Positions 20,608-28,749 of a stretch of 64,000 nt of DNA are shown one piece after another (the stretch's first letter is position 1; the number at the start of each line of letters is the position of its first letter). Under the pieces are notes generated by a model. That model saw only the letters and a program-made list of their open reading frames with translations. It was not told where the DNA came from and made no database searches. The translations under genes were made by a program, and so were the position numbers. Source of the stretch: an uncultured bacterium (GTDB lineage: Bacteria; Cyanobacteriota; Vampirovibrionia; Gastranaerophilales; Gastranaerophilaceae). Location of the stretch: the NCBI GenBank assembly GCA_947361225.1, contig CANAIK010000002.1:26877-90876 (forward strand), read 5' to 3'.

Positions 20608-20829
20608 TCAGGTTTTATCAAAATCGAGAATATCAACCAATTTTATTTTCATAGCTCTTGCAATTTTAAACATTAAAATAAGCGAAGGATTATTTTTCCC
20701 GGCCTCGAGTTTTCCAACATAAGTTGGATGAATCCCCACAATTTGCGCTAAATTTTTTTGCGTCAAATTAGCGTTAATTCTATGTTTTTTTATATTTTTA
20801 CCTAAGTTATGAATGAATTCTTTGCACAT
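20608..20829 (-). CDS. Small XRE-family regulator (paralogue 1)
   Basis: 73 residues, essentially only a helix-turn-helix domain. NLGKNIKKHRINANLTQKNL, then GIHPTYVGKLEAGKNNPS, make it closely similar to the proteins at 27145-27360 and 27461-27682. The region upstream carries direct repeats: GTAACTATT (20851-20859 and 20866-20874) and AACCCAAAACA (20875-20885 and 20896-20906, 21 bases apart). These are likely operator half-sites for autoregulation. Element A starts divergently just beyond. Confidence 0.88.
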   Translation of the reverse strand: MCKEFIHNLGKNIKKHRINANLTQKNLAQIVGIHPTYVGKLEAGKNNPSLILMFKIARAMKIKLVDILDFDKT

Positions 20830-21061
20830 AACTACAATTTAGCGTTAATTGTAACTATTTACAACGTAACTATTAACCCAAAACACTATAAATATAACCC
20901 AAAACAGTTTAAAATCCCCCTGGAATTTAGCTTAATTCAATGTTTTTCTTTATAAATTAACCTTTATTTGTTATAATAAATAAATGGGTAAGCTCCCGCT
21001 TATCACCCTCGCCCGCAGGCTTGTTAAGTAGAAATTTGAGCGGAGGGGTGGTGATGAAAAA

Positions 21062-21136
21062 GTGAAATTCTGTATAACAGAAAAAGCGCTATGGCTTATC
21101 TTAATGATAATCATAGCACTTCTTTTACTTAAATAG
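21062..21136 (+). CDS. Element A 24-residue hydrophobic peptide
   Basis: It starts with GTG at 21062, aligned base for base with the ATG of the element B copy, and ends in TAG at 21134-21136. The peptide begins MKFCITEKALWLILMIII, is almost entirely hydrophobic after EKAL, and ends in Lys: a single membrane helix. A strong purine-rich ribosome site (GGAGGGGTGGTGA, 21042-21054) precedes it. The leader segment ATCACCCTC (21002-21010) can pair with that site. The stop codon lies in the outer stem of the downstream hairpin. Function unknown; the layout recalls type I toxins. Confidence 0.55.
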   Translation: MKFCITEKALWLILMIIIALLLLK

Positions 21137-21192
21137 GGAGTTAAGAAGAACCTTAAAAGATTGGAGCTTTTAGGGTTCTTTCCCTATTTTTA
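21131..21192 (+). terminator. Two-tier terminator hairpin of element A
   Basis: The outer stem ATAGGGA...TCCCTAT encloses the inner stem AAGAACC-TTAAAAG / CTTTTA-GGGTTCTT, followed by a T-rich stretch. The TAG stop codon of the peptide is part of the outer stem. Confidence 0.75.
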
Positions 21193-21234
21193 TTATAACT
21201 TATTTTAAAAAAACTTCAAGCCTGATTAATTGAT

Positions 21235-26065: not shown

Positions 26066-26300
26066 TCAATGGGGCTAGCCTGCATCTTTTTTTAAAACTA
26101 CAAGAACAACAAAATCTTCGGTTTAAGAACTGATAGTTTATAAGAAAGGAGGCTGGAATTATGGAAAATATCAATTTGACTTTAATATTAATCTTATTGA
26201 TTATATACATAATAAAAAATGGCACCTATCTAAATAGATAAGCACCACTTCAGTCTTATGCAGTTGACGGTAGTTGGAGCTACCGCCCCTGATATCTATA
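26066..26300 (+). repeat. Element E: leader, tiny hydrophobic ORF and downstream hairpins
   Basis: It has the same plan as elements A-D but a different sequence. A leader has a long A/T stem: AAACTA (about 26095-26100) can pair with TAGTTT, and CTTTTTTTA and AGCCT can pair with the ribosome site AAAGGAGGCT. A 26-codon ORF (26161-26241) and downstream hairpins follow, such as CGGTAG/CTACCG around 26268-26285. I see no clear own promoter. Confidence 0.45.
26161..26241 (+). CDS. Element E 26-residue hydrophobic peptide
   Basis: The ATG at 26161 is preceded by AAAGGAGG with good spacing. The peptide starts MENINLTLILILLIIYIIKN, is a single predicted membrane helix, and has a short polar tail ending in Arg. 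It ends with TAA at 26239-26241. Too short to assign; kept because of its ribosome site and the four similar elements nearby. Confidence 0.5.
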   Translation: MENINLTLILILLIIYIIKNGTYLNR

Positions 26301-26400
26301 TTATAACCCGCTTTTTTAAAATTTCAAGGGTGGAAATAAAAAAGTGGTTTATAATTGTTTCTATTTTTTAAGTCTTGAATTTTGTAATAAATAAGTTATA

Positions 26401-26462
26401 ATAAAAATAGGGAAAGAACCTCAAGAGGTGTCAGCTCTCAAGGTTCTTCTTAACTCCCTATT
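26401..26462 (-). terminator. Two-tier terminator hairpin of element B
   Basis: On the minus strand the stop codon is followed by AAGAACCTTGAGAG and CTCTTGAGGTTCTT inside an outer TAGGGA/TCCCTA stem, then a T-rich stretch. The loop sequence differs from element A but the pairing is kept. Confidence 0.7.
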
Positions 26463-26532
26463 TTGCAAATGCGAGCGCTATTATTATCAATAAGATAAGA
26501 AGTAGCGCTTTTTCAGATACGCTAAATTGCAT
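26458..26532 (-). CDS. Element B 24-residue hydrophobic peptide
   Basis: ATG at 26532, TAG at 26458-26460. The peptide begins MQFSVSEKALLLILLIII and ends in ALAFAK. It differs from the element A peptide mostly by conservative changes and keeps EKAL, the Ile-rich core and the final Lys, which suggests selection on the peptide. The ribosome site GGTGGTGATGA can pair with ATCACC in the leader. Confidence 0.55.
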   Translation of the reverse strand: MQFSVSEKALLLILLIIIALAFAK

Positions 26533-26654
26533 TTCATCACCACCTTTCCGCTCAATTTCTACTTAACAAGCCTGCGGGCGAGGGTGATAAGCGGGAGCTT
26601 ACCCATTTATTTATTATAACAAATAAAGGTTAGTTTATAAAGAAAAACATTGAA

Positions 26655-27059
26655 TTAAGCTAAATTCTCGGGTTTTTTCTTTCTTCCTCTTTTTAAACTA
26701 TTAACAATATTTTGTTCTTGGATAGTTTCATCCATATTTAAATCTTTAGCTATTTTATTAATATAATCAATGTAGTTTTTTGATTCAACTCCGCTTTTTT
26801 CTAACAAAGAAAGAATAACTTTAACCCCGACCAAATTTAAAGACAGATTTCTTGTCAAAAACTGTATAAATTTACCTTTTTCAATATCATAAACTGTATA
26901 ATAGCGTCTATTTTTGGGAGTTCTTTTCGGGATTAACAACCCTTCTTCATCATAAATTCTCAATGTTCTTTGATGAACTTTAAGAATATCTGCCATATTA
27001 CTTATTGATATTGCGATTTCATAAAAATTTTCTTTATTTAATTGCAAAATGACCTCCAA
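26655..27059 (-). CDS. MerR-family regulator (HspR-like)
   Basis: 134 residues. The N-terminal winged helix (about 15-85) has ISNMADILKVHQRTLRIYDEEG and RRYYTVYDIEKGKFIQFL. A helical C-terminal part ends in a basic KRGRKKK tail. Such proteins bind long-spacer promoters, and HspR-like ones answer to stress. It is divergent from the XRE gene at 27145, and the shared upstream region contains two AAGCGT-N5-TCTATA sites. Element B begins at its stop codon. Confidence 0.85.
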   Translation of the reverse strand: MEVILQLNKENFYEIAISISNMADILKVHQRTLRIYDEEGLLIPKRTPKNRRYYTVYDIEKGKFIQFLTRNLSLNLVGVKVILSLLEKSGVESKNYIDYINKIAKDLNMDETIQEQNIVNSLKRGRKKKPENLA

Positions 27060-27093
27060 AGTTCTTTGTTTATCTATATTTTAGTTAGTAAAT

Positions 27094-27135
27094 AAGCGTA
27101 GTTTTCTATAGAAATAATAAGCGTGTCAGTCTATA
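27094..27135. promoter_or_regulatory. Operator pair upstream of XRE paralogue 2 and the merR-like gene
   Basis: A degenerate 17-base site (27094-27110) and a full copy of AAGCGTGTCAGTCTATA (27119-27135), both of the form AAGCGT-N5-TCTATA, start exactly 25 bases apart. The same pair with the same spacing recurs at 27410 and 27435. Confidence 0.65.
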
Positions 27136-27144
27136 TTGTCAAGT

Positions 27145-27360
27145 ATGAACACTAAAGTTTTAAAAAAATTAGGCAAAAACATAAAACGCTACAGACTTGA
27201 TTCAGGTCTAACACAAGAAGCACTTGCGCAAAAAGTTCGAAAACATCAAACTTACATTGGAAAACTGGAAACCGGCAAATGCAGTCCTTCAATAAAAACC
27301 CTTTTTGCAATTTCCAGAGCACTTCGAATTAAACTTTCAAATGTTTTTGATTTCGACTAA
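27145..27360 (+). CDS. Small XRE-family regulator (paralogue 2)
   Basis: 71 residues: LGKNIKRYRLDSGLTQEALA, then KHQTYIGKLETGKCSPS, a helix-turn-helix domain and little else. Start at the ATG at 27145; a TTG nine bases upstream is in frame but unlikely. It is a close paralogue of the next gene and of 20608-20829. Operators sit immediately upstream, consistent with autoregulation. Confidence 0.88.
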   Translation: MNTKVLKKLGKNIKRYRLDSGLTQEALAQKVRKHQTYIGKLETGKCSPSIKTLFAISRALRIKLSNVFDFD

Positions 27361-27409
27361 AGCAAAAAAAATTTTAAACTCTTTATTGATGTTCATTTTA
27401 CCAATAAAA

Positions 27410-27451
27410 AAGCGTGTCAGTCTATACAAATAGTAAGCGTGTCAGTCTATA
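27410..27451. promoter_or_regulatory. Operator pair upstream of XRE paralogue 3
   Basis: Two identical copies of AAGCGTGTCAGTCTATA (27410-27426 and 27435-27451), 25 bases apart, ending 10 bases before the start codon. Confidence 0.75.
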
Positions 27452-27460
27452 TTGTAAACT

Positions 27461-27682
27461 ATGAACACTAAAATCCTGGAAAATTTAGGGAAAAATATAA
27501 AAAAATACAGAATAGATTCCAGCCTAACCCAAGAACAACTGGCTGAAAAGGTTGGGGTTCATCCTACCTATATCGGGAAACTTGAGGGTGGTAAAAACAA
27601 CCCCTCAACAACAATGGTGTTTAAAATTACAAGAGCTCTAAAAATAACATTACCTCAAATTTTTGATTTTGATAAAAAATAA
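27461..27682 (+). CDS. Small XRE-family regulator (paralogue 3)
   Basis: 73 residues. LGKNIKKYRIDSSLTQEQLA, then GVHPTYIGKLEGGKNNPS. The first codons and about 40 upstream bases resemble those of paralogue 2, so the cassette (operator plus gene) was tandemly duplicated. It probably regulates itself and its neighbour. Confidence 0.88.
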   Translation: MNTKILENLGKNIKKYRIDSSLTQEQLAEKVGVHPTYIGKLEGGKNNPSTTMVFKITRALKITLPQIFDFDKK

Positions 27683-27732
27683 AGGATTTATATACAACTT
27701 TACACTAAATACTCCTAAAAACTAATCATAAT

Positions 27733-27790
27733 GTCATTCCGAACTTGTTTCGGAATCTGATAATTGGTAGGATGCTGAAACGAGTTCACC
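27733..27790. repeat. REP-like palindromic repeat remnant
   Basis: ATTCCGA (27736-27742) and TCGGAAT (27750-27756) form a hairpin inside the motif CATTCCGAACTTGTTTCGGA. A partial mirror (GCTGAAACGAGTTCA) follows at about 27774-27788. This resembles short palindromic intergenic repeats known from many bacteria; the second arm is degenerate. Confidence 0.5.
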
Positions 27791-27845
27791 TTGGCAGTTT
27801 TAACTATTTTTAGTGCAATCTGCTCTTAAGCCTCAAAAAATAAAT

Positions 27846-28091
27846 ATGACAAACCAAAAATTTAACAGTATTATTGCAAAAAGAATTAAAAAACTGCGAG
27901 AATCCAGCAATTTGACCCTTGAACAACTCGCTTATCAAAGCGGGATATCCAAAGGCGGATTGAGTGAAATTGAGCGAAATCTTAAAGAACCAAGAATGTA
28001 TACAATTGTCAAAATCTGCGCAGGGCTTGGAATAAGCGCAAAAGACTTTTTTAGTTTTGATGAAATAGATAGATTTATAAACGAATTATAA
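27846..28091 (+). CDS. XRE-family regulator
   Basis: 81 residues from the ATG at 27846 (an upstream GTG at 27813 is less likely because it falls in the repeat-like leader). The domain is RIKKLRESSNLTLEQLAYQS, then GISKGGLSEIERNLKEP, as in SinR-like regulators. It is not closely related to paralogues 1-3. Confidence 0.85.
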   Translation: MTNQKFNSIIAKRIKKLRESSNLTLEQLAYQSGISKGGLSEIERNLKEPRMYTIVKICAGLGISAKDFFSFDEIDRFINEL

Positions 28092-28206
28092 TTCCCCAAC
28101 CATTAACAGTAATTAGAAATTTGATATAATAATTCTAAGGATAAATACCTTACTTCCTCCAACACATACAATTTAATGAAGAATTGGTTGGAAAGGAGGT
28201 GAAAAT

Positions 28207-28281
28207 ATGACTGAAAAGATAATAAAAACCGCCATAGCGGCAACTATAGCGGTTTTAAAAATTTTATCAATTTGGTTATAG
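28207..28281 (+). CDS. Element C 24-residue hydrophobic peptide
   Basis: The ATG at 28207 is preceded by AAAGGAGGTG. The peptide begins MTEKIIKTAIAATIAVLKIL and ends in SIWL: an amphipathic-to-hydrophobic helix with three early lysines. It ends in TAG inside the TATAGGG arm of the next hairpin. It aligns with elements A, B and D by an acidic/basic pair near the N-terminus, an Ile-Ala core and an identical length. Confidence 0.55.
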   Translation: MTEKIIKTAIAATIAVLKILSIWL

Positions 28282-28362
28282 GGTATGAAGTGAAACCTCG
28301 AAGAAGTTAGATTTCTTTGGGGTTTCCCCCTATATTTCTTGCAAATTATGCAAGAAGGAAGA
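28278..28362 (+). terminator. Tandem hairpins after the element C ORF
   Basis: An outer TATAGGG/CCCTATA stem encloses GAAACCTC.../...GGGGTTTC. A second hairpin, TTCTTGCA/TGCAAGAA, follows. The second is not followed by a strong T tract, so termination may occur at the first. Confidence 0.6.
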
Positions 28363-28530
28363 CATTGGTCTTCATATTATATTATAAACCGTTTTTATAA
28401 AAATTCAAGTTTCATTCTTACAAATCATTAACGGCAATTAAAAATTTGATATAATAATTCTAAGGGTAAACACCTTGTTTTCTCCTCTAGCACAGACATT
28501 TGTGAAGAATTAGCTAGAAAGGAGGAAAAA

Positions 28531-28605
28531 ATGACAAAAGAACAAATAAAAATTGCTATAAAGGCAATTATAGCAATTTTAACATTTATTTATTCTATGT
28601 TATAG
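28531..28605 (+). CDS. Element D 24-residue hydrophobic peptide
   Basis: ATG at 28531 after AAAGGAGG. The peptide begins MTKEQIKIAIKAIIAILTFI and ends in YSML. Its length of 24 equals that of elements A, B and C. The codon region for Ile-Ala in the middle reads as an extended -10 box on the other strand. Confidence 0.55.
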   Translation: MTKEQIKIAIKAIIAILTFIYSML

Positions 28606-28682
28606 GGTGTGAAGTGAAACCTCAAGGAAGTTAGATTTCTTTGGGGTTTCCCCCTATATTTCTTGCAAATTATGCAAGAAAG
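28602..28682 (+). terminator. Tandem hairpins after the element D ORF
   Basis: The same pair as in element C: TATAGGG.../...CCCTATA enclosing GAAACCTC/GGGGTTTC, then TTCTTGCA/TGCAAGAA. Confidence 0.6.
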
Positions 28683-28749
28683 TCTTCATATTATTTATTA
28701 TAAACCGTTTTTATAAAAATTCAAGGGTTGAAAATTATTTGTATTTTCT

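Follow-up and report, generated by a model that had tools for sequence, protein, structure and literature searches.

The tandem XRE genes and their paired 17-mers

The stretch of DNA analysed here (the window, 64,000 nt in its full length) comes from a 1.9-Mb Gastranaerophilales MAG representing an uncultured gut bacterium, and carries on its plus strand two tandem genes for small XRE proteins, XRE1 (27145-27360, 71 aa, helix 3 HQTYIGK) and XRE2 (27461-27682, 73 aa, helix 3 HPTYIGK). Both match Pfam HTH_3, and XRE1, like XRE2, resembles the controller (C) proteins of restriction-modification (R-M) systems. A PDB sequence search returned C.BclI as the best match (E=1.2e-6), with C.BclI and C.Esp1396I as the closest solved relatives; the predicted structure of XRE2 (pLDDT 94) found C.BclI and C.AhdI at the top of the Foldseek matches with TM-scores of 0.83-0.92, and XRE2 matches the PADLOC Control_protein model with E=1.2e-12. 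On the minus strand, divergent from XRE1, lies a gene for a MerR/HspR-like regulator (26655-27047), with a TTG start at 27047 and GGAGG upstream. This gene matches MerR_1, and with the model of the HspR heat-shock repressor, NF047375, it scores 63.8 bits, below the curated cut-off of 105.

The 17-mer AAGCGTGTCAGTCTATA occurs on the plus strand at 27119-27135, 27410-27426 and 27435-27451 without a mismatch, and a degenerate copy, AAGCGTAGTTTTCTATA, lacking the AG of the otherwise conserved AGTCTATA, is present at 27094-27110. These sites bear out the preliminary description of this DNA, as does the start-to-start offset, which is exactly 25 in both promoter regions (27094/27119 and 27410/27435). 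In the dinucleotide-shuffle control of the search, 0.02 matches were obtained at up to three mismatches, and none of the 100 shuffles contained three matches. From sequence match and position we assign a putative distal operator centred at -43 from the ATG and a putative proximal operator centred at -18 to each gene: 27094-27110 and 27119-27135 for XRE1, and 27410-27426 and 27435-27451 for XRE2. The degenerate copy stands where the distal site is conserved in the 30 other pairs described below. The suggestion that the sites lie on one face with a slight twist has to be given up, because 25 bp at 10.5 bp per turn amounts to 2.38 turns and sets them about 137 degrees apart. A genome-wide search for a regulon had also been proposed, and none was found: no further place in the 1.9-Mb genome matches the 17-mer with one mismatch, the one match with two mismatches and the one with three have neither an XRE gene behind them nor a second site, and the looser core TAAGCNNNNNAGTCTATA, at up to two mismatches, gave 34 matches genome-wide versus 54 for the reversed-pattern control.

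The genome contains 51 XRE-like matches, very many for its size. Within the window, a third XRE gene in the plus-strand array (27846-28091, 81 aa) belongs to a different subfamily and has no such operator, and a third close paralogue of XRE2 (64% identical) lies on the minus strand at 20608-20829. The latter has the same apparently leaderless layout and the same spacing from -10 to ATG as XRE1 and XRE2, with other repeats upstream (20830-20910), namely nested direct repeats of GTTTTGGGTTA at 21 bp and AATAGTTAC at 15 bp. A module composed of regulators only, with a MerR/HspR-like gene divergent from at least one small XRE gene, recurs in the genus (L281, L282, L284, L285, L286, L288 and the window at 26655-28091); it is inserted between housekeeping genes, and another short XRE-like gene, with ...LDEELG... 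at its end, often follows. A different sort of paired site stands before further XRE genes of the module in L284 (near 5573) and L288 (near 4666), namely ACCAAATAGGTGGT-like palindromes that are spaced by 35 bp and reach as far as a GTG start.

Conservation of the pair and its genomic surroundings

The 25-bp pair was detected in 30 of 383 genomes of the family (about 8%), distributed over 10 of 41 genera, and the reversed-pattern control gave no matches. Because the first pattern had a fixed spacing, we repeated the search with the gap free at 0-30, and all 17 exact pairs again showed the same gap, i.e. 25 bp. Each of the 31 pairs (the window's two included), a count over related loci and hence not of independent cases, is followed by TATATT and then by the ATG of an XRE gene of 71-75 aa. 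Counted from the A of the ATG (+1), the distal site occupies -51 to -35 and the proximal site -26 to -10 throughout, and at all 31 pairs the two operators, judged by position, overlap the promoter of the XRE gene itself. The consensus operator is AAGCGTnnCAGTCTATA, present twice at 25 bp, and the conserved stretch extends from -54 to -3 (about 52 bp), including the 8-base gap and the GTCAA that follows the -10. The pair is single in nearly every genome, the window with its two being exceptional. Since it always precedes an XRE gene, and mostly occurs once per genome, we regard it as the control region of one gene family and not as the signature of a regulon.

The preliminary description had read the pairs as operators shared by the tandem XRE paralogues. 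The comparison supports this reading, in that every conserved pair precedes an XRE gene of the family and the same operator appears in both XRE subclades; taken alone, the function of the pairs as operators of XRE genes is, as judged from this conservation, close to certain. Tandem XRE genes occur in three genera (the window, G391 and G247), and the distal site stays in place where a good proximal site is absent, at L150 and before the second gene at L147, of G391. No centre stood out when a palindrome was sought inside the 17-mer, which is unusual for a dimeric XRE protein. We also looked for a constantly stronger site: the distal site scores better at 15 loci and the proximal site at 14, with one tie, and thus the site scores do not show the ranking of affinities that a C-type switch should have.

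To describe the surroundings, the identities of neighbours within 6 kb of 30 loci were read by eye and a methylase-motif scan was added. The XRE genes lie between different, mostly housekeeping genes, and no R-M genes adjoining them were found among the neighbours so read; the scan gave one rRNA-methylase-like ORF (L171) and one C5-methylase-like ORF 3.4 kb away (L167). At 23 of 29 loci, the closest gene on the upstream side is a divergent one. Recurrent neighbours are a HAD-like gene (divergent, about nine loci), a small helical protein (about four loci) and a secreted protein of unknown function (three loci), and PADLOC gave no match for the HAD-like or the secreted protein. A single conserved divergent cargo was rejected, as the neighbours vary between genomes.

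The window also contains ORFs for hydrophobic peptides of 24-26 aa, for example MTEKIIKTAIAATIAVLKILSIWL and MQFSVSEKALLLILLIIIALAFAK, at 26161-26241, 28207-28281, 28531-28605 and about 21064-21140 on the plus strand and at 26458-26532 on the minus strand. Several stand behind strong ribosome sites and are followed by conserved, structured-looking sequence; by their appearance, they look like type I toxin-antitoxin loci, and an Rfam search at these loci found no family at gathering score. An inverted repeat (20918-21223 and 26371-26672), complementary over 119 nt at 97% and over 174 nt at 76%, flanks about 5.2 kb and holds one such ORF in each arm, and at 28098-28409 and 28423-28725 the peptide-gene unit is duplicated in tandem with a period of about 325 nt (82-86% identical).

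Predicted promoters overlapping the operators

The predicted -10 hexamer of XRE1 (TATATT, 27132-27137, plus strand), overlapped by the proximal operator, was assigned by its spacing, 7 nt before the ATG; the predicted -10 of XRE2 is the TATATT at 27448-27453 (plus strand). At 31 of 31 pairs, 6-7 nt separate TATATT from the ATG and there is no Shine-Dalgarno sequence; because the -10 is so close to the start codon and this sequence is missing, the XRE mRNA is probably leaderless. The XRE promoter has a good -10 and a poor -35.

On the opposite strand, a consensus scan independently found a predicted sigma-70 promoter at 27142-27114 (TTGACA-N17-TATTAT, a match of 11 of 12), which faces the MerR-like gene, is conserved at other pairs and accommodates the proximal operator in its spacer. 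Across the 31 pairs, the minus strand reads TTGACA at -8 to -3 in 28 and TATTAT or TATAAT at -31 to -26 in 26, with a spacer of 17, and the mean match of this divergent promoter is 11.0 of 12, versus 7.9 for the XRE promoter (17-bp spacer). Many of the divergent genes have an ordinary ribosome-binding site 35-95 nt downstream of the divergent promoter, and at a few loci (L146, L153) its hexamers are present although no divergent gene is obvious. At the XRE2 pair, with nothing divergent upstream, the match has fallen to 9 of 12 (TTTACA-N17-TACTAT, 27430-27458, minus strand, antisense to XRE1). L150, where the proximal operator is gone, retains both divergent hexamers, and a sister clade of XRE genes in the same bacterial family has the same ATG spacing and is apparently leaderless, without a conserved GTCAA. 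L150 and the sister clade thus indicate that neither the operator nor leaderlessness accounts for conservation of the GTCAA, and together with the decayed match at XRE2 they argue that the divergent promoter is not a coincidence.

The position of the 27094/27119 pair in front of the MerR-like gene, pointed out earlier, gains weight from this result, as the pair overlies the near-consensus minus-strand promoter predicted to face that gene. Shared control of the MerR-like gene, which had been proposed along with it, is supported in the window by the comparison; as a general rule it does not hold, since the divergent neighbours vary between genomes.

Relation to controller proteins and a proposed bidirectional switch

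As a class, C proteins form a cooperative tetramer, activating at low concentration and repressing at high. They are made from leaderless mRNA; the upstream site, OL, serves to activate their own promoter, with contact to sigma made by an SQE patch, and the downstream site, OR, serves to repress it (PMC4824078). The main base contacts of C.Esp1396I are R35, T36 and R46 (PMC4041747), and the C-box consists of GACTnnnAGTC pairs around a central GT (PMC3115060). The XRE proteins of the pairs resemble C.BclI, C.AhdI, C.Esp1396I and C.Csp231I in size, in the XRE fold, in the [ST]QE patch on helix 2 (TQ is invariant at 23-24, usually with E next, T replacing the S of SQE) and in having two putative operators over their own promoter; their mRNA, if leaderless as predicted, would be a further resemblance. 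They differ from these proteins in that no R-M genes were found beside them, their operator is an asymmetric 17-mer direct repeat at 25 bp instead of GACTnnnAGTC boxes, and a predicted strong divergent promoter would serve various genes. T36 is invariant, whereas R35 and R46 are replaced, position 35 being P or Q and position 46 not R. As no R-M linkage was found at the loci read, and the C-box and two of the contact residues are lacking, we do not class them as C proteins. The literature searched yielded nothing about solitary C proteins or about leaderless genes in Gastranaerophilales.

The sister clade, in contrast, reads HRTYMSFIERGxR, i.e. R35, T36 and R46 are kept, and has a C-box-like operator, TGTTACTnnnAGTATGTGTAACTnnnAGT, at 15 of 17 loci with the same close spacing from -10 to ATG. 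Hence, recognition residues and operator differ together; because the tree needs few changes, this match represents a correlation between two clades. A C-like protein with a direct-repeat operator in place of a C-box is also known from Mollicutes, where the HsdC controller uses (GTGTTAN5)2 (PMC5282649), but that repeat has an 11-bp period and an unrelated sequence, and lies within the hsd operon.

From the conservation, spacing and positions of the sites, the promoter matches, the protein family and the predicted fold, we infer binding, transcription starts, activation and repression as follows. About 52 bp in front of each XRE gene would hold a strong divergent promoter that is active by default and, overlapping it in antiparallel orientation, a weak XRE promoter, with the XRE start codon at the presumed transcription start. 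The XRE protein should switch off the divergent promoter, since its start lies under the distal site (centre -43) and its spacer holds the proximal site (centre -18). Bound to the distal site, it would repress the divergent gene by covering the start of its transcript, and may touch sigma at the XRE promoter and so activate its own gene; on the proximal site it would obstruct the two promoters and limit its own level. Activation and repression in the manner of a C protein are suggested by where the sites lie, by the weak -35 and by conservation of the TQ(E) patch. Of the window's two pairs, the first would couple XRE1 to the MerR/HspR-like gene and the second would control XRE2, and both proteins probably bind both pairs. 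The proposed logic resembles that of the Esp1396I R-M circuit, with a strong default promoter repressed by a protein that tunes its own weaker promoter. The C protein of that circuit also represses a separate methyltransferase promoter; here the cargo is not a methyltransferase, and the promoters overlap antiparallel within about 50 bp. Counting against this model, the degenerate site of XRE1 is the distal one, which is supposed to activate.

A simpler arrangement would be negative autoregulation, in which both sites repress only the XRE promoter and the divergent TTGACA and TATTAT are a by-product of operator conservation. This would agree with the cover of the -10 by the proximal site, with the absence of a constant affinity order and with the persistence of divergent hexamers where no divergent gene is evident. 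We nevertheless consider it rather unlikely, as the hexamers fall outside the 17-mer itself, are near-perfect and 17 bp apart in 28 of 31 pairs, persist in L150 in spite of the lost proximal operator and, at XRE2 with nothing divergent upstream of it, have decayed; moreover, the -35 of the XRE promoter is poor, and -43, where the distal site is centred, is a position typical of activators.

A phage origin, with the XRE protein as a prophage-derived immunity repressor and the pair as a phage operator, is brought to mind by the layout of lambda OR. There, 17-bp operators about 23-25 bp apart serve PR and PRM, one near -42 of the self-promoter and one over its -10, opposite a strong promoter, with three operators in all and the promoters back to back. 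Operator length, spacing and positions and the strong opposing promoter are alike, whereas the XRE proteins have no C-terminal domain, the operators are two in number and of other sequence, and the promoters overlap. Two loci (L149, L151) belong to a prophage, with genes for phage heads, connectors and tails around them, and distant XRE relatives occur in phage records. These relatives are less than 60% identical, however, the other loci (all but 2 of 30) are mostly beside housekeeping genes, and none of 2.9 million viral contigs contains the 25-bp pair; we therefore rejected the class of phage CI/Cro-type immunity repressors, and hold a phage or mobile-element repressor to be very improbable. 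That the 17-mer might be a common repeat unrelated to promoters had been named beforehand as the refuting case, and the similar control regions of the tandem paralogues XRE1 and XRE2 would fit a recent duplication, or a dispersed repeat, that plays no part in regulation. Such an origin is scarcely conceivable and already contradicted by the confinement of the pair to the promoter position of XRE genes across 10 genera, at fixed spacing and in different surroundings, and by its retention while the XRE proteins differ by up to about 45%. An autoregulatory XRE protein that acts like a C protein, has no R-M partner and switches two antiparallel promoters is, as a whole picture, the reading we consider reasonably probable.

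More tentatively, and less likely than not in our view, the XRE gene and its bidirectional 52-bp switch may form a portable cassette. It would descend from R-M controller proteins, would have moved between members of Gastranaerophilales, and would keep a range of divergent genes (for a HAD-like phosphatase, a MerR/HspR-like regulator, a small helical protein and surface proteins) on by default and repressed by XRE, the operator having diverged from the C-box together with the changes at residues 35 and 46. The two sister clades, with their matched differences in residues and operator, offer a natural test of a change in DNA specificity. The overlapping antiparallel promoters, as proposed, would constitute a compact default-on switch beside many different genes, and the XRE genes provide a testable example of controller-like proteins without R-M genes, from an uncultured lineage of the gut in which small XRE regulators abound.
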